DNA of 64,000 nucleotides. Source: Nitrospinia bacterium. Lineage in GTDB: Bacteria; Nitrospinota; Nitrospinia; Nitrospinales; JAJDAT01. Position 1 is the stretch's first letter, and each line of letters begins with the position of its first letter. Location: the NCBI GenBank assembly GCA_029261715.1, contig JAJDAT010000051.1, positions 1-64,000 of the forward strand, written 5' to 3'. Below, piece by piece: positions 38,632 through 64,000 of this stretch. The translations under genes were made by a program, and so were the position numbers. The notes below the pieces were generated by a model. The model was given only the letters and a program-made list of their open reading frames with translations, searched no databases and was not told where the DNA came from.

Positions 38632-40743
38632 CTAACTACTTTTCCCCCGCCGATGCGTCTTATACTCATTCGCATGTTTACCGCATAACCACAAATAATG
38701 CCCTTCTGGAGTTAGAATCCGCTTCAACCCTTTATCTTGCCAATTCGGCTCAATCTCGTCCAACAACCATCGAAATGCTAACAAAGCAGACTCCTCCAAT
38801 TGTCTCGGCTCATCCTTAGAGCTCCACAAGTTTTCAGAGTCAATCCCAACTTCTAAATAAGAAGCTTTAGAAGTCAGCTTTTCCATAAATTCAATTTGAT
38901 TTTTTACCGACTCATGCGTTTCTTTGCTAAAAAAGGAACCAACCGCTGGATTGAATAAAGGAACTACAAAATTCCAAATTTTAGCCATCCCAGTAATATA
39001 AGGGGTCGCTTTTGCAAACCATTCAACAGGTTTTTCAAAAGAAAAACAGGCCGTTTCCACTGAATGCCAATAACCTGGAGACTGACAGAACAATTGCAAT
39101 TCACATTTTTTCATGGGTTTTAATTTATCAACCCCACTCTTTTCTAACTCTCGTAAAAGAAAAACATTAGGGCACGCTTGCTCCTCGCTTGATTGAATGG
39201 AGTTATAAATCTTGATGAAATTCAGCTGCATTAGAGACAGTAATTCGTTTTTAACAGTATCTTCCAATTGATCTAATTTTGCTCCAACCTTATCAAAACG
39301 TTCTCGAACTTCATACGTAAGATTATTGATCAAAGCGACTAAATCATCGCGTACTTCTTCAAACGTCTTAATTTCCCAACCTCTTATTAAATCAGTCGCC
39401 GGAATCATCTTGAATTTTTTCGGACATTGAATCTCTTTAACATTTTCTTCAAATGCTCTGCTGAGATCTTCAAAATCAAACTCATGAACACACCGCTCAT
39501 CGTCATGTCCAGGGCAGGGAATTTTACGCTCAATTTCTAAACCTTTATAACGTTCTAGAATCAACTCTAAACCATCGCGTAAAATAGCGAAAAAACTATG
39601 AGGCACTCTTCCACGAACCGTCAACGTTAAAATATGTTTGTGCGTATCGGTTTCAACCAAAGCCCAATTGTTCGATTTATCTTTGAAAATCGCGCCATGT
39701 AGCCAATGCGTTCTTGTTGTGAACCGGTGCGACCGCGCTATAAACCAAGTGGGAATTCCTGGCGGTATTGTGTTCAAACAAAACTTCATAGAAAGCTCTT
39801 TGTTATTTTCCGATTGGGTTTTGTCTTTCCAGATTTCTTGATAATTCGGCAACTCAACTGGCAACAACTCCACAACCAAACTCCTATCGTCTTTGCCAGA
39901 AATTTGATAGGAGAGATCAAACTTTTCCATGAGCCGCAAAAGACGATCTTGTATACCCGGCCCTGTTACATCTTTCCAGAGCTTGTCCATATGTTGACGG
40001 CTAAACACTCCTTTTTTTCCCGCGATCTCTTCGCAATCAAGAACTTTTCCAACTTCTTTTGAAACCCATTGCGGTTTTAAAATAATCGTGTCTTTCAAAT
40101 CATCATCTTCATGGTAATAAAGAATGTCGCCCAATTCATGGAGCGTTTTAAGCAATGTTTCCGTTTCTTTTTCTTCAACCTCAAATTTTGAAAAAATTTC
40201 TGGAATTTCTTGTCGAGAAATAAATAACCCATCTTTTTCTCGCAAAGCACTTGCCGAATCAATCCAAGACTTCGGCCACTCTTGTCCCATGAGAGGTAAT
40301 TCAGAAGCATGATCGGCTATAGCAGTGCGCAAATCTTCAAATCCAATATTATCAGTACTACTTACTCCAAAATGCGCTTTGACCTGTGGGTACTTTGTTT
40401 GTAATTGAGAAAAAGGTAACTTTGTGGGACGTTGATCCGTATGAGTGCCAACAATTAAAATCGGGGAATCGGGAGCGATCGCTTTGATATTGTCTAACCA
40501 ATCGTATAATTTTCCTTGTTCGTATTCATGAATAGTATTCCACGCCAAGATGAAAAGCGAACGATTACTGAAAAAAAATTGGTGTGTCGCATGATAAATT
40601 TCTTGTCCGCCAAAATCCCATGATTTCAAGTCCATCTCAACTTTCGACTCTTTAGGATGTGATAATTTCAAAGGATGAATTTCAATGCCATGTGTGGTTT
40701 GAATTTCTGGATCAAATTCTTCTCCACGAAGACGTCTTAACAT
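38632..40743 (-). CDS. Roc-COR portion of a ROCO protein
   Basis: 703 residues from the first ATG after the break. The Roc GTPase part contains SWDFGGQEIYHATHQFF (switch) and VGTHTDQRP (base recognition), but the P-loop GQGGVGKT lies just upstream of this ATG. Without it the GTPase would be dead. The COR domain follows (WIDSASALREKDGLFIS; LGDILYYHEDD; ILKPQWVSKEV), then a long C-terminal half including a coiled coil (FDKVGAKLDQLEDTVKNEL). ROCO proteins dimerise via COR and cycle with GTP. The restart codon has no convincing ribosome site. Confidence 0.75.
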   Translation of the reverse strand: MLRRLRGEEFDPEIQTTHGIEIHPLKLSHPKESKVEMDLKSWDFGGQEIYHATHQFFFSNRSLFILAWNTIHEYEQGKLYDWLDNIKAIAPDSPILIVGTHTDQRPTKLPFSQLQTKYPQVKAHFGVSSTDNIGFEDLRTAIADHASELPLMGQEWPKSWIDSASALREKDGLFISRQEIPEIFSKFEVEEKETETLLKTLHELGDILYYHEDDDLKDTIILKPQWVSKEVGKVLDCEEIAGKKGVFSRQHMDKLWKDVTGPGIQDRLLRLMEKFDLSYQISGKDDRSLVVELLPVELPNYQEIWKDKTQSENNKELSMKFCLNTIPPGIPTWFIARSHRFTTRTHWLHGAIFKDKSNNWALVETDTHKHILTLTVRGRVPHSFFAILRDGLELILERYKGLEIERKIPCPGHDDERCVHEFDFEDLSRAFEENVKEIQCPKKFKMIPATDLIRGWEIKTFEEVRDDLVALINNLTYEVRERFDKVGAKLDQLEDTVKNELLSLMQLNFIKIYNSIQSSEEQACPNVFLLRELEKSGVDKLKPMKKCELQLFCQSPGYWHSVETACFSFEKPVEWFAKATPYITGMAKIWNFVVPLFNPAVGSFFSKETHESVKNQIEFMEKLTSKASYLEVGIDSENLWSSKDEPRQLEESALLAFRWLLDEIEPNWQDKGLKRILTPEGHYLWLCGKHANEYKTHRRGKSS

Positions 40744-53543: not shown

Positions 53544-53936
53544 ATGGCAAATCATCAAGGTAGCGAAGGAACAGTACTCAATGGAGCTAATGCAATTGCG
53601 GAACTCCGCGCTTGGAACCTAAGCACCACCGTTAACATGATCGAAGATACCGAATTGGGAGATACCTGGAAAACTAAAAAAGCAGGAACCAAAGAGTGGA
53701 GCGGTAACATCGATACCTATTGGGACGAAACCGACACCAATGGTCAGGTCATGTTAAAAGAAGGCAATGAAGTAACTCTGAATTTACATCCGGAAACTGC
53801 GATATCGGGCGCTACCTATTACACAGGAAACGCCATTATTACCGGAGTCACCCGACAAGCAGCCATCGACGGTATGGTTGAAGCTTCTTACACCTTTGAA
53901 GGTAACGGCGCTTTGACGGAATCCATAGTGGCTTAA
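53544..53936 (+). CDS. Phage-type tail tube protein
   Basis: 130 residues, a compact beta-rich protein. NMIEDTELGDTWKTKKAGTKEWSG is followed by TYWDETDTNGQVMLKEGNEV, and the C-terminal strand EASYTFEGNGALTE. Size, composition and its place directly before the chaperone and tape-measure genes identify it as the major tail (tube) protein of a lambda/GTA-type tail. AAGGAAAA precedes the ATG. A paralogous domain opens the last gene of the window. Confidence 0.82.
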   Translation: MANHQGSEGTVLNGANAIAELRAWNLSTTVNMIEDTELGDTWKTKKAGTKEWSGNIDTYWDETDTNGQVMLKEGNEVTLNLHPETAISGATYYTGNAIITGVTRQAAIDGMVEASYTFEGNGALTESIVA

Positions 53937-53966: not shown

Positions 53967-54293
53967 ATGAATCCAATTTTAGAAAAAGCTATCGACCACC
54001 AAAAATCTAAAGAAACCCAATCTATTTTTATCGAGGAATGGGACTGTGAAATTTGTTTCACGGAACTCTCCTTGGCGGAACGGAAAAAGCTGGAAAAGCT
54101 TTCCAATGGGAACACTTTTGAAATGGCGGCTTACACCCTGATCTTAAAATCTCTGGACAAGAACGGTAATAAAATATTCGACTTGTCTGATAAACCACAT
54201 CTTATGGCTAGCGTTGATTCCAAAGTAATCGAAAGAATTTTTGTCGCCATGGTTGGCGGGGTGGATACGGTCGAGCAAGCTGAAAAAAACTAG
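53967..54293 (+). CDS. Tail assembly chaperone, short form (gpG-like)
   Basis: 108 residues, helical. It has WDCEICFTELSLAERKKLEKL, which is typical of tail chaperones that coat the tape measure. It ends AEKN at a TAG placed directly on the slippery heptamer. Termination here gives the short product; ribosomes that slip make the 154-residue long form. It begins 30 bp after the tube gene. Confidence 0.8.
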   Translation: MNPILEKAIDHQKSKETQSIFIEEWDCEICFTELSLAERKKLEKLSNGNTFEMAAYTLILKSLDKNGNKIFDLSDKPHLMASVDSKVIERIFVAMVGGVDTVEQAEKN

Positions 54294-54430
54294 AAGCGGA
54301 TACCGGACTTAGGTGGATCTATTTTGTTGCAGAGCAATTAAAGAGACCTGTCTATGAAATCATGGATATGCCGGTATCCGAATTTAATCACTGGATAGCT
54401 TACTTCAACTTAAAAAGCAATGGCACTTAA
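53967..54430 (+). CDS. Tail assembly chaperone, -1 frameshift fusion (gpGT-like)
   Basis: After slippage on A AAA AAC (54284-54290) the -1 frame continues CTA GAA GCG GAT and encodes 46 more residues, including RWIYFVAEQLKRPVYEIMDM and EFNHWIAYF, to TAA 54428-54430. This second segment matches the T part of phage GT chaperones (a Trp-rich short helix bundle). It overlaps the tape-measure start (54420) by 11 bp. The order short form, frameshift, fusion, tape measure is the classic phage arrangement. Confidence 0.78.
54284..54380 (+). promoter_or_regulatory. Programmed -1 ribosomal frameshift site with downstream stem
   Basis: Heptamer AAAAAAC at 54284-54290 is in the correct X-XXY-YYZ phase. 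A six-base spacer is followed by a perfect 10-bp long-range stem, CGGATACCGG (54297-54306) with CCGGTATCCG (54371-54380), enclosing 64 bases. This is the standard stimulatory layout. Confidence 0.75.
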
Positions 54431-55895
54431 TGTAGAAAATAAAATTAAGGAAGCTTGCGACGCTCTCGTTGGAAGCTTCACCAAGATAAGCATGGCCGCT
54501 AATAGTTTGACCCTCGATATTGTCGCAACTGAGTCTGCTGTTGTTAATTTTGGGAGCGCCGCTGAAACAACAATAAATCAATCGGGACAATTTGCGGATA
54601 CCGGACCCAATACCGTTGCAGGCGCTGTAAAAATGAGCAATCCTCTTGGCGAAGGCATTGGGATTATTACAAAAACCCAAGACGCACTCAATGCACTAGG
54701 CGACGATTTTATTAAAGCTGGGGAAAACGCCGTAGGGGATTTTAATAAATCTGTGGTCTCGCTTGCCGATTCGATTAAAGGAAAATTTCTGAATTCTATT
54801 CTAGAAACATTTCCTTCTCTTATGAAATACAAAGACGAGATTTCAAAGATTACCGACGCTCTAGGCGGGGCTTTGGTTGATGGAGCAAGTGTTGCAATTC
54901 CCATCATAGAAGAAATTGGAAAGGGACTCCAATTTGTTGGCGGCATCATCAAAGACGTCGCTAGTTTTCCCGACATACTGATTGAAGGTTTTCAGCAATT
55001 GGGCGAGGTTGGAAGACAAGCAGTTGCACAGTTTGAGCAGGGCTTTATTGAAAAATGGGACGCTGTTAAAGAAAGCGTTGTCGGTCTGATACCCGAAGGA
55101 ATAAGGAGTTTCTTCACAGAAAACTTTCCCTCTTTGGGCGAGTTTGCTTCGGGCATCGTTGAAAATTTTGAGCGAGGTTTTGGCAAAAAATGGGATGCAA
55201 TCAAGGAGGGCATTTTTAACCTCATACCGGATGGCTTAAAAAACTTCTTTGCAGAAAATATTCCTTCTATCTCCAGCTTTTTGGATATTGGAAAATTAGG
55301 ATCGGATGCAATTGGCTTTTTTGCCGACGGCATGGGAAGCATGCTCGGGAAAATATTTGACGTTTCTTCCGCTATTGGCGGCGCTATGACAAACACCATA
55401 GGCGGCGCAATCTCAATCTTAGGACAAGGGTTCGGCGGTCTGAAGGATTTTGCGGTTTCCGCATTGAGCCAAATTACACAAAGCTTACTCAGTCAAGCAG
55501 GAAGCTTTCTCAGCGGCGCGGGCGGATTGCTTAGCGGTATTTTCGGTGGTGGCGGCGGAAGCTTTTTAGGCGATATCGCAGGCGGACTGCTTGGCAGCTT
55601 CTTTGGAGGCCCTGGACGCGCTAATGGCGGTTCTGTTTTCTCTGGCACCCCTGTTCTGGTCGGCGAGAAAGGTCCGGAACTGTTTCTTCCTCCTTCTAAT
55701 GGGAAGATCATTCCCAATAATCAAATGGGCGGTGGTGAAAACGTAACAATTGTCCAAAATATCAGCACCGGTCAAAGCCAAACTATCCGGGCAGAGATGA
55801 TGGCATTCCTTCCTGTATTTGTTGATCAAGCTAAGCATGCCATCGCCGATGCTCGTCAACGCGATCCGCGCTTTAGCGCGCAAATGGGGGTTTAA
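54420..55895 (+). CDS. Tail tape-measure protein
   Basis: 491 residues, short for the family, implying a tail of roughly 70 nm if the usual 1.5 angstrom per residue holds. The N-terminal part is helical. The middle has two related segments (EKWDAVKESVVGLIPEGIRSF and KKWDAIKEGIFNLIPDGLKNF), then Gly-rich hydrophobic helices. The C-terminal signature is GTPVLVGEKGPELFLPP followed by GKIIPNNQ, common to lambda-like and GTA tape measures. It overlaps the frameshifted chaperone and abuts the distal tail gene without a gap. Confidence 0.88.
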   Translation: MALNVENKIKEACDALVGSFTKISMAANSLTLDIVATESAVVNFGSAAETTINQSGQFADTGPNTVAGAVKMSNPLGEGIGIITKTQDALNALGDDFIKAGENAVGDFNKSVVSLADSIKGKFLNSILETFPSLMKYKDEISKITDALGGALVDGASVAIPIIEEIGKGLQFVGGIIKDVASFPDILIEGFQQLGEVGRQAVAQFEQGFIEKWDAVKESVVGLIPEGIRSFFTENFPSLGEFASGIVENFERGFGKKWDAIKEGIFNLIPDGLKNFFAENIPSISSFLDIGKLGSDAIGFFADGMGSMLGKIFDVSSAIGGAMTNTIGGAISILGQGFGGLKDFAVSALSQITQSLLSQAGSFLSGAGGLLSGIFGGGGGSFLGDIAGGLLGSFFGGPGRANGGSVFSGTPVLVGEKGPELFLPPSNGKIIPNNQMGGGENVTIVQNISTGQSQTIRAEMMAFLPVFVDQAKHAIADARQRDPRFSAQMGV

Positions 55896-56522
55896 ATGGC
55901 AATCACCTACCCGTTGAGTATTCCAACGAATAAAAAGTTTAAAACGTGCCGGTTTACGGCTCGTTCGGTCGTGGCGGTATCTCAATCTCCGTTTACCGGT
56001 CAACAACAGGTTCAAAAACATCCCGGCCAATGGTGGGAAGTAGACGTTTCCCTGCCGCCAATGGAAAGGGATGACGCAGAAGAATGGTCTTCCTTCTTCC
56101 TGAAGTTGAATGGTCGAGAAGGAACTTTCTTAATGGGAGATCCTTTGGCAACAAGTCCTAGAGGCGTAGGGACGGGTGGCCCACAAGTCGATGGACCCAG
56201 CCAAACGGGGAATTCCCTCGTAACCAAGGGTTGGACTGTATCGCAAACCGGTATTTTAAAAACCGGGGATTACATCCAATTGGGTTCCGGCGTGACATCA
56301 AAACTCTATAAGGTTTTGAACGACGCCGATTCGAACGGTTCCGGAAACGCGACTCTTGATATTTGGCCCGATATCACTCCTGATAATTCTCCAGTGGATA
56401 ACTCGGCGATTACCATTTCCGATACGGTTGGAGTTTTTCGTTTGGTATCAAACGAAATGCCTTGGACGCAAAACGCTCCGTCCGTTTATGGGTTTACGTT
56501 CGCCGCAACTGAGGCTTTATAA
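55896..56522 (+). CDS. Distal tail protein (gpM/Dit-like)
   Basis: 208 residues, beta-rich. VAVSQSPFTGQQQVQKHPGQ and WWEVDVSLPPMERDDAEEW are followed by FLKLNGREGTFLMGDPLA, a pattern seen in distal tail proteins just after the tape measure. It starts one base after the tape-measure stop. Assignment rests mainly on position and the Trp/Pro-rich opening; it forms the ring joining tube to tip. Confidence 0.72.
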   Translation: MAITYPLSIPTNKKFKTCRFTARSVVAVSQSPFTGQQQVQKHPGQWWEVDVSLPPMERDDAEEWSSFFLKLNGREGTFLMGDPLATSPRGVGTGGPQVDGPSQTGNSLVTKGWTVSQTGILKTGDYIQLGSGVTSKLYKVLNDADSNGSGNATLDIWPDITPDNSPVDNSAITISDTVGVFRLVSNEMPWTQNAPSVYGFTFAATEAL

Positions 56523-56523
56523 C

Positions 56524-57105
56524 ATGGCTAGAAACCTAACACCTGCAATGATTGCCGCCGTCCAAGCTGGAACGGTCGCTCCGTTTTTAATCACAAAGAT
56601 AAACACTGCGGGCGGCGACGTTCGGGTGTGGAACGGAAAAGGCGATTTGCCTTTCGACGACGGTAGCGGCAGCGGTACGGAAACCTATATTGGCGTTGGA
56701 ACTTATGGCGGCATTTCAGCCGTTCAAGAATCGGCAGATATGAAAGCCAATGGAATCACGCTTTCTCTTTCTGGAATTCCTTCCAGCATGATCTCCACTG
56801 TTCTGGGCGAAATAGAACAAGGCCGAAAAGCTTCAATCTGGTTGGGTTTCTTTGACGCTTCTACCAACGCAGTTATTGCCGATCCTTATGAATTATTCTC
56901 CGGACAAACGGATATACCAGAAATCGTTGAGTCGGGCGACACGTCTACTGTTTCGATATCTATTGAAAATCGTCTGATCGATTTGGAAAAGAAACGAGTG
57001 AGACGGTACACGAAAGAGGATCAACAACGAGACTTTCCCGCGGACCAAGGATTTGATTTTGTTCCATCATTGCAAGATAAAGATATCCAATTCGGAACGT
57101 CATGA
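56524..57105 (+). CDS. Tail hub-type protein (gpL / DUF2163-like)
   Basis: 193 residues from ATG 56524, one base after the previous stop. It opens ARNLTPAMIAAVQAGTVAPF and contains TYIGVGTYGGISAVQESADM and WLGFFDASTNAVI. This fits the hub-domain proteins placed between the distal tail protein and the cysteine peptidase in lambda and GTA gene orders. It overlaps the next gene by four bases (ATGA). Function is by position and resemblance. Confidence 0.72.
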   Translation: MARNLTPAMIAAVQAGTVAPFLITKINTAGGDVRVWNGKGDLPFDDGSGSGTETYIGVGTYGGISAVQESADMKANGITLSLSGIPSSMISTVLGEIEQGRKASIWLGFFDASTNAVIADPYELFSGQTDIPEIVESGDTSTVSISIENRLIDLEKKRVRRYTKEDQQRDFPADQGFDFVPSLQDKDIQFGTS

Positions 57106-57536
57106 GACTCGAAGGCTGGGAAAAAAAGTTAGAAGAGCTTATTCGCGAACGTAGTAACTCTCCTTTTAATTATGGATCGATTGACTGCTGCTTATTCGCT
57201 TGTGACGCCGTCGAAGCAATCACAGGAAGAGACCCTGGCGAGTGGTTCCGAGGCAAATACAAAAGTCAAAAAGAGGCTTACCGGTTGCTAAAGGAATTTG
57301 CCGACGGAGAAATCTTGGAGACAGCCGAGAAGATCACTTCCGCTTTGGGGATGCCTGAAATTCATCCGAACTTTGCGCAACGTGGGGACGTTGTTTACTG
57401 CAAAATTGAAACTCTGCGTTTAGGGTTGAACTATACCCTTGGAATATTGTCTATCAACGGACAAATAGCCGTACCAGGAAAAAACGGCTTGGAGTTCTAC
57501 CCTTTAGAACGAGGAATAAAAGCATGGAAAGTATAA
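57102..57536 (+). CDS. NlpC/P60-like cysteine protein of the tail tip (DUF6950-like)
   Basis: 144 residues. NYGSIDCCLFACDAVEAITG carries the candidate catalytic Cys near residue 28 (Asp-Cys helix start). A His is present in IHPNFAQRGDVVYCK near residue 85. In tails these proteins are usually gpK-type peptidoglycan peptidases or their relatives. It overlaps the DUF5131 gene by 13 bp. Peptidase activity is inferred. Confidence 0.72.
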   Translation: MRLEGWEKKLEELIRERSNSPFNYGSIDCCLFACDAVEAITGRDPGEWFRGKYKSQKEAYRLLKEFADGEILETAEKITSALGMPEIHPNFAQRGDVVYCKIETLRLGLNYTLGILSINGQIAVPGKNGLEFYPLERGIKAWKV

Positions 57537-58168
57537 GGGTTAAAAACTGGGATGTGGTAACAGGGTGCGAAAGACTGACTCCCGGTTGCGATAGCTGTCC
57601 ATCTTTTTGGGAATACAAGCAAAAGGATTGGGACTTCAACGCAAAATTTCACTCCGAAAAAGTGAAAGACCCTTTAAAAAACCCAACTCCGACTAAATAT
57701 ACGGTCGCTTTGGGTAGCGATCTTTTCCATGAAGCGGTCACAAAAGAAAATATTAAATTCATTTTTGACACGATGAGTTTAGCGCATTGGCATTGGTTTG
57801 AGATTTGTACCAAAAGGCCTGAAAGGATGTTCTGCGTTTCAAAGGATTTGGAGTGGGGACAAAATATATCTTTAGCCGTCTCGGTGGAAAGTCAAGAGTA
57901 CAAATGGAGAATCGAATACTTAAGACAAAGTCCCGCCGTAATTAAATGTATTTCTATGGTTCCGTTACTCGGTCCAATGGGAAAACTAGATTTAACAGGA
58001 ATCGCTATCGTAGGCGTTCAAGCCGAGACATGGGGGTTAAAACGAAAAATGGAACCCAATTGGTCAGATGACATCAAACTTCAATGCGAGGAACAAGGAG
58101 TGATATTTTCTTACAACAATACGGATATCTATTCTGAAGGAGAAGTGACATGCCCGGCGCCGGAGTAG
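57524..58168 (+). CDS. DUF5131 (phage Gp37/Gp68) radical-SAM-like protein
   Basis: 214 residues. NWDVVTGCERLTPGCDSC holds a Cys-x6-Cys-x2-Cys cluster near residues 15-25 that should bind an iron-sulfur cluster. Later motifs are GSDLFHEAV and FEICTKRPERM, typical of DUF5131. The family is usually found in phage and mobile DNA; its reaction is unknown. The usual aromatic after the third Cys is replaced by Pro-Ser. It overlaps both neighbours, so it belongs to the tail operon. Its link to tail building is unclear. Confidence 0.83.
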   Translation: MESIRVKNWDVVTGCERLTPGCDSCPSFWEYKQKDWDFNAKFHSEKVKDPLKNPTPTKYTVALGSDLFHEAVTKENIKFIFDTMSLAHWHWFEICTKRPERMFCVSKDLEWGQNISLAVSVESQEYKWRIEYLRQSPAVIKCISMVPLLGPMGKLDLTGIAIVGVQAETWGLKRKMEPNWSDDIKLQCEEQGVIFSYNNTDIYSEGEVTCPAPE

Positions 58169-61100
58169 CAGTAGCAACTTCAACAACCTTAGGATCGGCA
58201 GTTCTCGCCAGCACAGCAAGCATCGCCTTTGGGGTTTTAGGCACTGTTGTTCAGGTAATTGCTACGCAATTGGTTCTTGGCGCTATTTCGAGCGCCTTAA
58301 TCTCAAAACCAAAAGCATTTGGCGGGGGGTTCCAATCAATAGCCGCAAGCGCAAAGGAAAGAACGTTAACGTTTCGGCAACCGATCACTTCTCATAGAAT
58401 TATTTTTGGGGACGTGAGAGTTAATGGCCCCATGTCTTTCCTCGAATCGACCAACGACAATAAGAATCTTCATCAGTTGGTAACCATTGCCGGTCATGAA
58501 ATTGATCGAGCGGTTGAGTATTTTGTTAATGACGAAGTGATTACCTTAGACGGTAACGGAAAGATCCAAGAGGGTAAATTCTTTAAATCCGGTCAAAATA
58601 CGATTGTTATTAAAACTGGGACTGGCAGTTCAACTGGAGATTTAGATTTAAACTCCTCTTTGATCGCTAATTCCACATTATGGACTTCTAATCATAAACA
58701 AGAAAGTCGAGCAAAGTTTTATACTGAGTTTGTTTTTGATCGGGACGTCTTTGCCGGTCAATTGCCCAATATTTCTTTAAGAATTCGCGGAAAAAAACTC
58801 TACGACACGCGAGATTTTGTAACTCGATATAGCAATAATGCGGCTTTGGTCATTTATGATTATTTGACCAATAAAGATTATGGTGTCGGAGAACCTGTAG
58901 ATAGGGTCAACATTGCATCCTTCAACACGGCGGCTAACATCTGTGAAGAAATGGTAACAGTTGTTGGGGATAGCAAGACCTTTACCGCCGACATTTCTAC
59001 CGACAATATCACTCTATCCGATAAGTGTAGAAACCTTTACACTGGCTGCGGCATTGAAGTATCGACTGACGGCACATTACCTGTAGGATTGTCTGCGTCA
59101 ACAACCTACTACTACATCCGACATTCAGATACGGCAGGACAATTAGCGACGACTTACGCCAAAGCGCTAGCAGAAACTGCCATCGACTTAACCGATGTTG
59201 GCTCTGGAACACACACTTTCAGCATCGTCTCAGAACCGCGTTATACCTGCAATGGTATTGTCGATACAGACGCGACTCCGAAAGAAAACATGCAAAAACT
59301 TTTAACTTCTTTGCATGGGCTTTTAACTTATCAAGGCGGCGAATGGAATTTATATGCTGGAGCTTTTCGAAGCCCCACTATGACTTTGACAGATGCGGAC
59401 CTTGACGAAGGGCCTATCACCGTAACTTCGAAAGTTTCCAGACGTGAACTGTTTAATGGCGTTAAAGGGATTTTTATTAATCCAGATGATGCTTTTCAAC
59501 CAACAGATTATCCTCCAATAACAAATACCATTTATTTAACAGAAGACCAAAACGAACGCCTTTGGAAGGACACTGAGTTACCGTTCACCACCTCCCCTTC
59601 TATGGCGCAACGAATCGCGAAAATTGATTTGGAAAAAGCGCGTCAACAAATCACGGTTCGTTTATCTTGCAATTTAACGGCTATGCGTTTACAGGCTGGA
59701 GATACCGTTGGACTCACTCTTTCTCGTATGGGATGGACGGATAAAGCGTTTGATGTTGTGGACTGGAACTTTTCAACTAAGGGCGGCAACGACGCGCCTC
59801 GGTTTGGAATCGATTTATTTTTGAGAGAAACATCATTCACAGTTTACGACTGGAACTCTGGTGAAGAAACAACACTGGACCCGGCTCCTAACACTAATCT
59901 TCCCGATCCTTTTACCGTAACGACTCCGACAAACCTTACTCTTTCGTCTGGAACAACCGTTCTGTTTCTAAAAAACGACGGTACGGTCGTTTCACGCATT
60001 AAAGCAACTTGGATCGATTCAACAGACGGGTTTGCGCGCGACTATGAGTTGCAGTTTAAAAAATTAAGCGATTCAGACTGGCAACCTTCTTTGATCATTC
60101 CTCAAGGGTTGCAACAAGGTTATATATGGGAAGTTCAGGATGGACAAAGTTACGACGTTAGAATCCGCTCGCGCAACACGCTTGGAGTTGTTTCTTCATG
60201 GGTAACGCCAGCAGCCGGAACGCATACCGTCATTGGAAAAACCACTCCACCAGGCGATGTGGCAGAGTTTTCCGCACAGCAAAACGAAGGAACGGTAACT
60301 TATCAATGGAGTCAAGTTACAGATATTGATTTGGATGGCTACGAATTGCGCTATTCAGCTCAGGGGGATTTCCTTTGGAGCTCCGCAATCGCGCTTACCA
60401 AAAAAACGCGAGGAACACTTGTTACTAACACGGGTTTGCCGCCAGGTAGTTGGACGGTGGGAATCAAAGCGTTTGATACAAGCGGCAATGAGAGCATTAA
60501 CGCAACCACTTTTGATATTGGCGTTTTCAATGCCAACGATATTTTAGTTTCTGCGGAACATTCTCCAAGATGGGCTGGGACGTTAACTAACTTTATTCGC
60601 CACGACGTCAGTGGAACACTGATTCCAGATTCTCAGGATTTAGCAAACGCAGTGGATGACGATTCAATTTTCGATCAATTAACAATCAATCCTTACACAA
60701 TCTGTACCTTTGAACCGGCAGAGATTGACTTAGGAGCCGATGCCATTGGAGTACGAGCTTGGATCGATAACTTTCTGGCGGTAATAGGTCCTGGCGAAAG
60801 CGGTAGCGCCGATCCTATTTTTCAAATCGATTATAGGAAGACTGCCGATTCGTACGACGGATTTGAAACCTGGACCGTAGGAACGCTTGATACTCGGTAT
60901 GCAAAAGTAAAAGCAAAAATTGACACTTCTACTGGCGTGGCTTTTCTTTCGGGTTTTAATCCGGTACTGGATATTAAGGAACGTGAAGAAAAAGGTTCTG
61001 GAGTTTCCGTTTCTGTATCTGGCACAGTGGTTTCCTTCAGCAACGATTTCAACTTAATCCCTAATGTGCAAATCACCGTTCAAGATACATCGGCGGCGCA

Positions 61101-61206
61101 GGCAGTCATTACCGCCGTTTCGGTTTCAAGTTTTACCGTAAAAGTTTTTAACAATTCCGGCGTAGCAATCGCAAGCACAATTAACTGGACAGCATTAGGA
61201 GCATAG
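58150..61206 (+). CDS. Tip attachment / host specificity protein (gpJ/megatron-like)
   Basis: 1018 residues. The N-terminus has a hydrophobic Ala/Ser/Val-rich stretch (residues 5-55) and then RQPITSHRIIFGDVRVNGPM, a gpJ-type opening. A beta-rich barrel region spans to about 590, with an insertion near 275-370 typical of phage proteins (GLSASTTYYYIRHSDTAG). Two fibronectin type III-like domains lie at about 595-790 (GQSYDVRIRSRNTLGVVSSW; GSWTVGIKAFDTSGNESI). The C-terminal domain is probably receptor-binding or fibre-attaching. It overlaps the DUF5131 gene by 19 bp. Confidence 0.85.
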   Translation: MPGAGVAVATSTTLGSAVLASTASIAFGVLGTVVQVIATQLVLGAISSALISKPKAFGGGFQSIAASAKERTLTFRQPITSHRIIFGDVRVNGPMSFLESTNDNKNLHQLVTIAGHEIDRAVEYFVNDEVITLDGNGKIQEGKFFKSGQNTIVIKTGTGSSTGDLDLNSSLIANSTLWTSNHKQESRAKFYTEFVFDRDVFAGQLPNISLRIRGKKLYDTRDFVTRYSNNAALVIYDYLTNKDYGVGEPVDRVNIASFNTAANICEEMVTVVGDSKTFTADISTDNITLSDKCRNLYTGCGIEVSTDGTLPVGLSASTTYYYIRHSDTAGQLATTYAKALAETAIDLTDVGSGTHTFSIVSEPRYTCNGIVDTDATPKENMQKLLTSLHGLLTYQGGEWNLYAGAFRSPTMTLTDADLDEGPITVTSKVSRRELFNGVKGIFINPDDAFQPTDYPPITNTIYLTEDQNERLWKDTELPFTTSPSMAQRIAKIDLEKARQQITVRLSCNLTAMRLQAGDTVGLTLSRMGWTDKAFDVVDWNFSTKGGNDAPRFGIDLFLRETSFTVYDWNSGEETTLDPAPNTNLPDPFTVTTPTNLTLSSGTTVLFLKNDGTVVSRIKATWIDSTDGFARDYELQFKKLSDSDWQPSLIIPQGLQQGYIWEVQDGQSYDVRIRSRNTLGVVSSWVTPAAGTHTVIGKTTPPGDVAEFSAQQNEGTVTYQWSQVTDIDLDGYELRYSAQGDFLWSSAIALTKKTRGTLVTNTGLPPGSWTVGIKAFDTSGNESINATTFDIGVFNANDILVSAEHSPRWAGTLTNFIRHDVSGTLIPDSQDLANAVDDDSIFDQLTINPYTICTFEPAEIDLGADAIGVRAWIDNFLAVIGPGESGSADPIFQIDYRKTADSYDGFETWTVGTLDTRYAKVKAKIDTSTGVAFLSGFNPVLDIKEREEKGSGVSVSVSGTVVSFSNDFNLIPNVQITVQDTSAAQAVITAVSVSSFTVKVFNNSGVAIASTINWTALGA

Positions 61207-61210
61207 ATAA

Positions 61211-62302
61211 ATGGTTTCTACTTTTACTCAGCCCAATTCCGTGACACAAAGCGGAACGGCATACAAAACGAATATAGACGATGCCGTAGCAGTTATGAAA
61301 CGGCTAGGGGTCATGTTTGCGGTTCATCAACAAACTACCGCCGACATGACAATTAAAGTCGAGGCTGGACACATAGCAACGGTAGCGGGAATCCATACGG
61401 AAGTGACAACGCAAAATAGCGCAACTTTAACTTCTCCTACAACAAATCCAAGAAAAGATATCGTTTACATCGATAAAGTAACGGGAATTGTGGGCGTCGC
61501 GACCGGCGTCGAAGACACAAGTCCAGTCGATCCCACTATACCCACCGATAAAATAGTCATTGCACGAATTCATTTAACAGTAGGTATAACGGAAATTACA
61601 AATGCTGATATTGACGACTTGAGATCGGTATCTATTGGCGGCGGCGCTTCTGGCGTTCCATCCGGATCGCTTATGGATTACGCAGGTTCCACGGAGCCAG
61701 ATGGTTGGGTGTTTTGCGACGGTTCTACTTACAATTCCATTACCGATACTTCATTTTTCGACCTGTTTACGGCAATCGGCACGACTTATGGCGGAACGGG
61801 AGCGGCGGATTTTAAGGTTCCGGATATGAGAGGTCGGACAACAATTGCTTTAGACAATCTTGGCGGTTCCAGCGCTAACCGAATGACCGCGACTTCTGCC
61901 GATAGTATTGGCGGAACCGGCGGTTCCGAAACTCATGCCTTAACGTCTACCGAGAACGCGACGCATACCCACACAGGTCCAAGTCACACACATACAGGTC
62001 CGAGCCATACTCACACCGGACCAAGCCATACGCATACCGGACCGAGTCATACTCACACAGCAGTTATTGGACTTCCTGGCGATAATCCAGGAGCAGGAGG
62101 GAATCCAGGAGGCCTTGGGAATGGCCCAACCACAGCTAGTGGCACGGGCGCAACGGGAGCCGGCGGCACAGGAGATACAGGAGCAAGCGGCACCGGCGAT
62201 ACTGGGGCAGGCGGAACTGGCGATACAGGATCTTCCGGTTCTGGAACGCCTCATCCAAACGATCAACCTTGGATCGCCATCGCAAAAATCATTAAAAAAT
62301 AG
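61211..62302 (+). CDS. Collar-domain tail fibre with HTHTGPS repeats
   Basis: 363 residues. Residues 1-140 are a shaft/attachment region. A phage tail collar domain follows (GSLMDYAGSTEPDGWVFCDG; TTYGGTGAADFKVPDMRGR). At about 252-283 five HTHT units are joined by GPS; His-x-His motifs of this type bind iron in the T4 long fibre tip. A Gly/Thr/Asp repeat region (about 310-345) precedes PWIAIAKIIKK, a conserved fibre end. It is probably a homotrimer binding host surface. It starts five bases after the gpJ-like stop. Confidence 0.85.
   Translation: MVSTFTQPNSVTQSGTAYKTNIDDAVAVMKRLGVMFAVHQQTTADMTIKVEAGHIATVAGIHTEVTTQNSATLTSPTTNPRKDIVYIDKVTGIVGVATGVEDTSPVDPTIPTDKIVIARIHLTVGITEITNADIDDLRSVSIGGGASGVPSGSLMDYAGSTEPDGWVFCDGSTYNSITDTSFFDLFTAIGTTYGGTGAADFKVPDMRGRTTIALDNLGGSSANRMTATSADSIGGTGGSETHALTSTENATHTHTGPSHTHTGPSHTHTGPSHTHTGPSHTHTAVIGLPGDNPGAGGNPGGLGNGPTTASGTGATGAGGTGDTGASGTGDTGAGGTGDTGSSGSGTPHPNDQPWIAIAKIIKK
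61964..62059 (+). repeat. 21-bp coding repeats (HTHTGPS)
   Basis: Four and a half tandem 21-bp units encode HTHTGPS, with silent differences between units (CATACCCACACAGGTCC, CACACACATACAGGTCC and so on). They lie inside the tail fibre gene. Confidence 0.9.
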
Positions 62303-62310
62303 GAATCGAT

Positions 62311-62880
62311 ATGAGCCAGTTTATTCATGAAATTATTCCAGATCCTATTAATGGCGATCGGGAAATGGTTACCGTCAACAATCTGGAATTACCTTTAGCA
62401 GAATTTCAAAAATTAGAACCCGATTACAAAGCACTACCTGAGGGAATGAAGGGATTCCAATACATATCCGGAAAACACTATTACGCTTACGATATGGACG
62501 GCAACGTCATTCAACCCACCGTATCGGAGTCAACATTAGAAGCCTGCCTGGCTAACGTCTCTAGTTATAACGATGCAATGGTTCGCGCTAACAAAGTCAA
62601 ACTAATCCAACAATGGGATACCGGTTCGATAGATAAAAATCGAACAAAAAGAATCAAAGAAATTAAAAATGAAGCGCGCTTAAAACTTGCAGATGAAACA
62701 GATTGGTACTTTGTCCGCAAAACTGAAAAAGGATCGCCCATCCCTCAATCTATTCTAGATTATAGGGAAGCCATTAGAAAGTCTGTCGACGACGCTAAAA
62801 AAATTATAAATAGTCTCTCCAACGTCCAAGCAATCAAGAATGCATCTATAAACTGGCCCACTAATCCGGATGATGTTTAA
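62311..62880 (+). CDS. Tail fibre assembly chaperone-like protein
   Basis: 189 residues. The C-terminal half has ARLKLADETDWYFVRKTEKG and IPQSILDYREAIRKSVDDA, the pattern of phage tail fibre assembly chaperones (tDW..R...P..i..yR), ending INWPTNPDD. The N-terminal half is specific to this system. It follows the fibre gene by eight bases, where such chaperones are normally encoded. It should help the fibre trimerise. Confidence 0.85.
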   Translation: MSQFIHEIIPDPINGDREMVTVNNLELPLAEFQKLEPDYKALPEGMKGFQYISGKHYYAYDMDGNVIQPTVSESTLEACLANVSSYNDAMVRANKVKLIQQWDTGSIDKNRTKRIKEIKNEARLKLADETDWYFVRKTEKGSPIPQSILDYREAIRKSVDDAKKIINSLSNVQAIKNASINWPTNPDDV

Positions 62881-62920: not shown

Positions 62921-64000
62921 ATGGCAAACCATCGAGGAGATGAAGGGTTTTTACTAGCTGGTTCTAACTTTATTGCAGAACTCCGCGCTTGGAATATAAA
63001 CGTCTCCGTTAATATGATCGAGGGTACTCGATTAAGCGGTTCGTGGAAAAGTAAAAAGGCTGGAACCCGGGAATGGAACGGGAGTATTGATACCTATTGG
63101 GACGAAAACGATCCCCATGGACAAGGAGTATTAAAAGAAGGCGAAGACGTGACTCTGTATTTTGCTCCGGAAGGCGAAGGTGCAGGCGATACTTATTATA
63201 AAGGATCGGCGATTATTACTGGAATAACTCGACAAGCAACCCTTGGCGGTATGGTTGAAGCGTCTTACACCTTTGAAGGTAACGGAGCTTTGACGGAAGA
63301 CGTAGCTCCTATAACTTCTATTCATGACGGCAGTATCTGGACTCAGGCCACTGCCTCCGCTAACTGGACGTCGCGCATTCGACATAACTCTGTCGTTTTC
63401 CAAAATAAAATGTGGCTTCTGGGCGGAAGAAGCGTTTCCTTTTATAAAAACGATGTCTGGCACTCTACAAATGGCATTGACTGGACTGAAGCGACTTCTT
63501 CAGCAGGCTGGGTTGGCCGCAATCAACATGCGACGTTGGTCTTCAATAACAAACTGTGGGTGTTGGGCGGTTATATTTCTGGCAGCGCTGTTAACGACGT
63601 TTGGTCTTCCTCGGATGGAGTTAATTGGACGCTAGAAAAGGCAAATGCCGACTGGCCTGCTCGGAATGCTCATGGCGCAACGGTCTTCGACGGGAAAATG
63701 TATATCGTGGGCGGTCAAGGGGCTGGCGGCTATGGAGACGACTTGAGCGATGTTTGGTCTTCTTCTAATGGCGTTAACTGGACTCTGGAAACAAGCAACC
63801 CGACTTGGGCAGGGCTTTATGGAGCTACCGTGGTGACTCATGCTCATAAAATGTGGTTGATAGGCGGAAATCTTCCAAAAAGAAACGATGTTTATAGTTC
63901 GGCTAACGGAAAAGATTGGGTCTTAGCTACCGATAACGCGCCGTGGCAAGCTCGTCATTATCACGCTTCGGTGGTCTACCATAACAAAATATGGGTACTA
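62921..64000 (+). CDS. Tail-tube paralogue fused to a Kelch propeller (C-terminus cut by window edge)
   Basis: 360 codons open at the edge, with AAGGAAAA upstream of ATG 62921. Residues 1-126 are a clear paralogue of the 53544 tube protein (SWKSKKAGTREWNGSIDTYW; EASYTFEGNGALTED). In the same frame follow Kelch-like blades of about 55 residues each: KMWLLGGRSVSF, KLWVLGGYISGS, KMYIVGGQGAGG and KMWLIGGNLPKR, each followed by a SS.DGVNWT-type strand. Tail-tube joined to Kelch is unusual; the propeller would project from the tail and may bind a receptor. It opens 40 bp after the chaperone stop. Confidence 0.85.
   Translation, partial: MANHRGDEGFLLAGSNFIAELRAWNINVSVNMIEGTRLSGSWKSKKAGTREWNGSIDTYWDENDPHGQGVLKEGEDVTLYFAPEGEGAGDTYYKGSAIITGITRQATLGGMVEASYTFEGNGALTEDVAPITSIHDGSIWTQATASANWTSRIRHNSVVFQNKMWLLGGRSVSFYKNDVWHSTNGIDWTEATSSAGWVGRNQHATLVFNNKLWVLGGYISGSAVNDVWSSSDGVNWTLEKANADWPARNAHGATVFDGKMYIVGGQGAGGYGDDLSDVWSSSNGVNWTLETSNPTWAGLYGATVVTHAHKMWLIGGNLPKRNDVYSSANGKDWVLATDNAPWQARHYHASVVYHNKIWVL

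Follow-up and report, generated by a model that had tools for sequence, protein, structure and literature searches.

What might a phage-like tail do with a tube subunit that carries a propeller? The question is raised by a gene at the right-hand edge of the window (the whole stretch of DNA analyzed here, 64,000 bases long, which is bases 1–64000 of a 156,130-base contig). An ATG-started frame on the forward strand begins at 62921, behind a ribosome-binding-like AAGGAAAA, and runs without a stop codon to the end of the window, with a tail-tube domain and Kelch repeats in one frame. The remainder of the gene, missing from the first-pass annotation of the window, was taken from the contig: it is 204 bases long, so that the complete gene (62921–64000 in the window; 62921–64204 on the contig, + strand) ends with a stop at 64204 and encodes 427 amino acids. 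The tail-tube domain (residues 1–130; 62921–63310) is followed by a short linker of five residues (131–135; 63311–63325) and a six-repeat Kelch propeller of 292 residues (136–427; 63326–64000, with its end beyond the window; Kelch_1, E = 8e-25). The joint lies at the natural end of the tube domain, that is, a complete 130–amino acid tube comes first and the linker starts directly after its last residue. That the fusion is an assembly error, an objection voiced in the first-pass annotation, is unlikely because, within the contig, exact repeats that reach the junction are at most 23 bp long, and those inside the Kelch part do not exceed 14 bp. A joining by chance is ruled out, and the tube–Kelch fusion is confirmed as real.

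The first 126 residues had initially been taken for a paralogue of the tube protein encoded at 53544, and the relation extends over all 130 residues, with 65% identity. The domain strongly matches the “major tail protein” family phrog_1407 (E = 2.5e-17), whereas its match to Pfam Phage_tail_2 is weak (E = 0.003) and below the curated cut-off, above which the plain tube lies. The plain tube itself matches the tail tube of phage R4C (8gtb) in sequence (E = 4e-6) and in predicted fold (E = 5e-7); the fold matches that follow are the tube of monocin, a headless tail particle, and, further down, that of a gene transfer agent. For the fused tube domain, the AlphaFold model (pLDDT mostly 64–88) contains the tube fold with its long β2–β3 loop and one helix, and matches 8gtb with E = 1.2e-7 and a TM-score on the target of 0.70; as far as the fold of the monomer goes, the earlier concern that the domain could not fit a tube ring finds no footing. 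Baseplate, neck, and cap proteins are also listed among the fold matches of the tube domains. A phylogenetic tree built from 107 distinct tube sequences places the fused domain as sister to the plain one (support 0.99). By sequence, the first half of the fusion is a true tube paralogue.

The two sisters have not diverged at the same pace. Branch lengths in the same tree are 0.43 for the fusion and 0.08 for the plain tube. The fused domain evolved approximately five times faster, yet under purifying selection on the protein sequence (dS 0.80, dN 0.23, and dN/dS ∼0.29 between the two). When the two copies were compared with the nearest viral tube as third sequence, 26 changes were unique to the fusion versus seven to the plain copy (p 0.001); with the most distant of three outgroups, the rate comparison gave p 0.09. 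Sixty-eight columns are conserved in viral tubes, and the plain copy keeps 53 of them, the fusion 45.

Where the residues were lost matters for the role of the protein. In R4C, the long loop contacts the next ring and the neighboring subunit (PMC10276861), and in lambda two Asp-to-Ala changes in the equivalent loop, at the ring–ring interface, inhibit tube growth (PMC8718954). Residue numbering of the fusion loop coincides with that of R4C; its inter-ring segment comprises residues 34–44 (EGTRLSGSWKS; 63020–63052, + strand). When only family-conserved residues kept by the plain copy were considered, the fusion had lost four of five within residues 35–44 versus seven of 48 elsewhere (Fisher p 0.005, for a segment picked after the data had been seen and for small counts). 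The ring-stacking loop has lost acidic and glycine residues that the family conserves, and residues 34–44 carry a net charge of +1, whereas the plain tube has −3 and each of 20 non-redundant viral tubes has −2 or −3. The long loop still has its hydrophobic contact positions, I33, T36, and L38. We read this pattern as pointing to altered ring stacking without loss of the fold. The fusion thus lacks the conserved ring-stacking loop that marks a siphophage tail-tube protein and, as far as its sequence tells, is not to be classed as an ordinary, interchangeable tube subunit, because four of five conserved loop residues are lost and the charge is reversed.

The second half of the protein matches Kelch families with E values of 1e-24 to 1e-26. 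“At least five” Kelch-like blades had been noted within the window; the complete frame holds six repeat cores of the xWxxGG type (at residues 164, 212, 260, 311, 357, and 404). The Kelch domain is led by an N-terminal strand, DGSIWTQ, which is able to close the last blade. Such a leading strand is the usual way in which the last blade of a propeller is closed, and from the six repeats plus this strand a closed six-bladed ring would be expected. The Kelch half of the AlphaFold model, made from the window copy, is unreliable (pLDDT ∼40), that copy ending at the window edge and having no aligned relatives. The propellers of both Kelch fibers encoded downstream start at the same leading motif, DGSxWTQ. 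A direct derivation of the Kelch half from these adjoining fibers was considered and found unsupported: its identity to other Kelch proteins encoded in this genome is just as high (∼40–45%). Full-length Kelch domains with 39–45% identity to that of the fusion occur in further proteins, some with a signal peptide–like start (on genome contigs C1 at 361 kb, C25 at 390 and 582 kb, and C38 at 41 kb). The Kelch cassette is of a kind common in this genome.

The genes around the fusion form a non-contractile tail cluster in which the canonical tube is the plain gene (130 amino acids; 53544–53936; Phage_tail_2, with the 8gtb sequence and fold matches), followed by those for a tail assembly chaperone (53967–54293; phrog_344, E = 1e-8) and a tape-measure protein of 491 amino acids (54420–55895; several tape-measure PHROGs). 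Next come a distal tail protein (55896–56522; phrog_1302, E = 1e-38), a tail hub protein (56524–57105; phrog_2048, E = 1e-46), a DUF6950 protein (57102–57536; PF22262, E = 2e-34), and, between it and J1, a DUF5131 protein (57524–58168; domain match). The J-like tip protein J1 (58150–61206; Phage-tail_3), a tail fiber with a collar domain (61211–62302; PF07484, E = 8e-17), and a probable tail-fiber assembly protein (62311–62880; phrog_4912, E = 2e-5) precede the fusion; on the + strand lie the plain tube gene and those for the chaperone, the tape measure, the distal tail, hub, and DUF6950 proteins, J1, the collar fiber, and the fiber assembly protein. The fusion is directly followed by a J1 paralogue, J2 (contig 64269–67346), and then by Kelch fibers 1 and 2. 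J1 and J2 share 73% identity, with the greatest differences in the last 300 residues; the Kelch fibers resemble the collar fiber in their N-terminal part (64%), but at their C-termini a Kelch domain stands where that fiber has its collar. From tube to fiber, every tail gene is intact, and pairwise dN/dS is well below 1 for tubes, J copies, and fibers alike. The fusion therefore sits not beside the tube gene but in the fiber/tip part of the cluster, and together with J2 and the two Kelch fibers it looks like a second, alternative tip cassette. The pairing of a second J with Kelch fibers points to a switchable tail tip.

Head genes were found neither among the upstream genes examined (from 34.6 kb to the tube) nor inside the cluster, no tail terminator is present in the cluster, and no lysis genes were identified in it. 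Annotated genes upstream of the plain tube encode a histidine kinase, a cyclic nucleotide–binding protein, and a TonB receptor, and a Roc-COR GTPase (with Roc, COR-A, and COR-B domains) is encoded at 38632–40743 on the − strand. The genome's only gp17-family tail terminator belongs to a second tail cluster 20 kb on. As it lacks head and terminator genes, the cluster may not make a finished tail. The remainder of the contig holds further phage-like loci. The second non-contractile tail cluster (contig 74.4–97.4 kb) has its own terminator, a lambda-like tube, and a tape measure, with no head genes nearby. Head and packaging genes lie at 138.9–147.2 kb; they comprise a portal, a major head protein, and a terminase whose sequence is divided between two frames, and fiber arrays come after them. 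Between the two tail clusters lies a gene (71195–72526) whose product combines eCIS_core (DUF4157) with an effector-like Peptidase_M91 domain; the genome's other eCIS_core gene is on contig C25, and the domain mainly marks contractile injection systems (PMC11297309). Arrays of large fiber-like genes, short remnants included, are found at 88–98, 122–126, and 148–156 kb; they have in common a C-terminal tag similar to DLRxRYVTxxGESQKLHAWGLQAR and are possibly an exchangeable fiber-end cassette.

The search for the fusion in other tail clusters, proposed in the first-pass annotation, returned none. Approximately 160 tube loci from IMG/VR (80 tube relatives of one scan and 83 frames of a second) were all plain and no longer than 161 residues; none of 25 INPHARED phage records spanned both the tube and the Kelch half, none of 49 viral Kelch stretches contained a tube domain, and no tube–Kelch fusion was present in the PLSDB plasmids. 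Seemingly full-length matches on Leptospira plasmids in PLSDB were rejected because their N-terminus is not a tube domain. Scanning a collection of bacterial genome contigs with Kelch-rich patterns from the whole fusion yielded Kelch proteins only. Among 387 genomes, relatives included, the fusion occurs in this one alone, and only four others contain any tube relative at all. Searches of open-access literature turned up no tube–Kelch fusion either. Many viral contigs encode Kelch propellers of the same NDVWSSxDGxxW type; viral Kelch propellers appear mostly in podoviral gp10-like proteins, and two that were tested against PHROGs are P22 gp10-like (phrog_578).

How could such a protein have arisen and worked? 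A tube gene would have been duplicated, one copy fused to a Kelch cassette, and the ring-stacking loop of that copy diverged. Residues 1–130 would take the place of a tail-tube protomer in a six-fold ring, while the propeller would hang from the C-terminus on the exterior of the tail and bind a ligand on the target surface. Along with J2 and the two Kelch fibers, the fusion would belong to an alternative tail end, close to whose tip it would make up, or take part in, a single ring or a small number of rings; it would not replace the plain tube throughout the tail. A specialized tail-tube subunit of this kind, with an outward propeller in one or a few rings near an alternative tip, is in our view the probable, if by no means assured, function. 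The outside of the tail is the most likely place for the propeller because this is where the tube proteins of lambda, T5, and YSD1 carry their C-terminal domains (PMC8718954). Ligand binding we infer by analogy, because the adjacent fibers carry Kelch domains and because the extended tube subunit TpeX of 936 lactococcal phages has been shown to bind host cells (PMC6669499). A fuller version is possible but distinctly more tentative: the loop would confine the fused tube to a single level, where six Kelch discs would form a collar, and the alternative tip with J2 and the Kelch fibers would allow one element to make two differently targeted tails.

The idea first attached to this gene was that a propeller-bearing tube subunit decorates the tail along its length. 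Exterior display is still the most economical reading, but decoration over the full length was not established, and the tip cassette and the loop change suggest a more restricted position. From the dimensions of R4C (outer diameter ∼85 Å, rise ∼40 Å, and six subunits), the circumference available per subunit at the level of the propeller amounts to ∼68 Å versus a disc of ∼45 Å, so that full decoration would be sterically permissible, by an estimate rather than a model. A minor subunit along the whole tail, with plain and fused tubes mixed within each ring, would be in line with the three contact positions that were kept (mapped to PMC10276861) and with precedents, namely, the 3:1 mixture in SPP1, which has an extended tube protein (PMC8718954), and the frameshift-extended TpeX in the 936 phages (PMC6669499). 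We nevertheless consider it unlikely: the conserved acidic and glycine residues of the loop are lost, the gene is in the tip cassette and not beside the tube gene, and the protein is a separate paralogue, not an extension of the same tube. Because of the loop change and the gene position, a specialized ring, or a small number of subunits at one particular level, is favored over random mixing. More doubtful still is an adaptor of the tip or hub unrelated to stacking, the tube-like domain of which would now attach to J2 or to the distal tail protein and form the foot of a receptor-binding protein; the tube fold is common to many tip and cap proteins, the gene adjoins J2 and the Kelch fibers, and its divergence is accelerated, but with 45 of the 68 family-conserved positions (the plain copy has 53) the sequence is still clearly that of a tube protein. 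Least probable is a relic, an accidental in-frame fusion in a decaying headless prophage that enters no particle, for which the missing head and terminator genes next to the cluster, the split terminase elsewhere on the contig, and the occurrence in a single genome could be cited, but in which an intact frame, a complete set of tail genes, and a dN/dS well below 1 for tubes, J copies, and fibers would hardly be expected. With the specialized subunit as the preferred reading, the presence of a plain and a specialized copy in one cluster would offer a natural test of position-specific tube rings.

The first part of the cluster, the DUF5131 gene aside, corresponds gene by gene to tails of marine siphophages, with counterparts in the Roseobacter siphophage CRP-811 and in many IMG/VR contigs. 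CRP-811 has the same order of tube (53% identical), chaperone, tape measure, three tip proteins, J, and fiber; however, its terminator, head, and packaging genes are just upstream of a single plain tube, whereas the cluster in the window begins at the tube, and CRP-811 has no gene at the position that DUF5131 occupies here between DUF6950 and J1. Tail genes without head genes are also found in headless non-contractile tailocins (monocin and rhizoviticin), and the monocin tube is among the best fold matches; in contrast to them, the present cluster, known from its genes alone, has no terminator and no identified lysis genes. Propellers at a tail are known from podoviral nozzle proteins (T7 gp12 and P22 gp10-like). 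T7 gp12 is a solved propeller in the tail nozzle, with six propellers around the tail channel (PMC6702177), but in these proteins the propeller helps to form the wall and gate of the channel, and they lack the tube fold that the fusion has. TpeX resembles the fusion in that a tube subunit is extended by a large module, which is carbohydrate-binding in TpeX (PMC6669499); there, however, a programmed frameshift adds a BppA-like module in phages of Gram-positive hosts, whereas the module of the fusion is Kelch. A comparable layout is found in lambda gpV, T5 pb6, the YSD1 tube protein, and SPP1 gp17.1*, in which a further domain, C-terminal to the tube domain, is exposed on the exterior of the tube (PMC8718954). 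In these, the displayed domain is an Ig-like fold of ∼90 residues, compared with a Kelch propeller of 292 residues in the fusion, and it is part of the same gene or a frameshift product, whereas the fusion is a separate paralogue in a tip cassette. The display of binding modules on a tube subunit had been called rarely described; this applies to the propeller but not to tube subunits with C-terminal binding domains, which are well documented (PMC8718954; PMC6669499). Display of a C-terminal domain by tube subunits is thus known; what the fusion adds as a variant is a propeller, a complete Kelch domain on a paralogue of the tube that has diverged. The modules so far known on tube subunits are mostly small Ig-like domains and one carbohydrate-binding family, and with a six-bladed propeller on such a paralogue the tail tube would be seen to carry a wider variety of folds.
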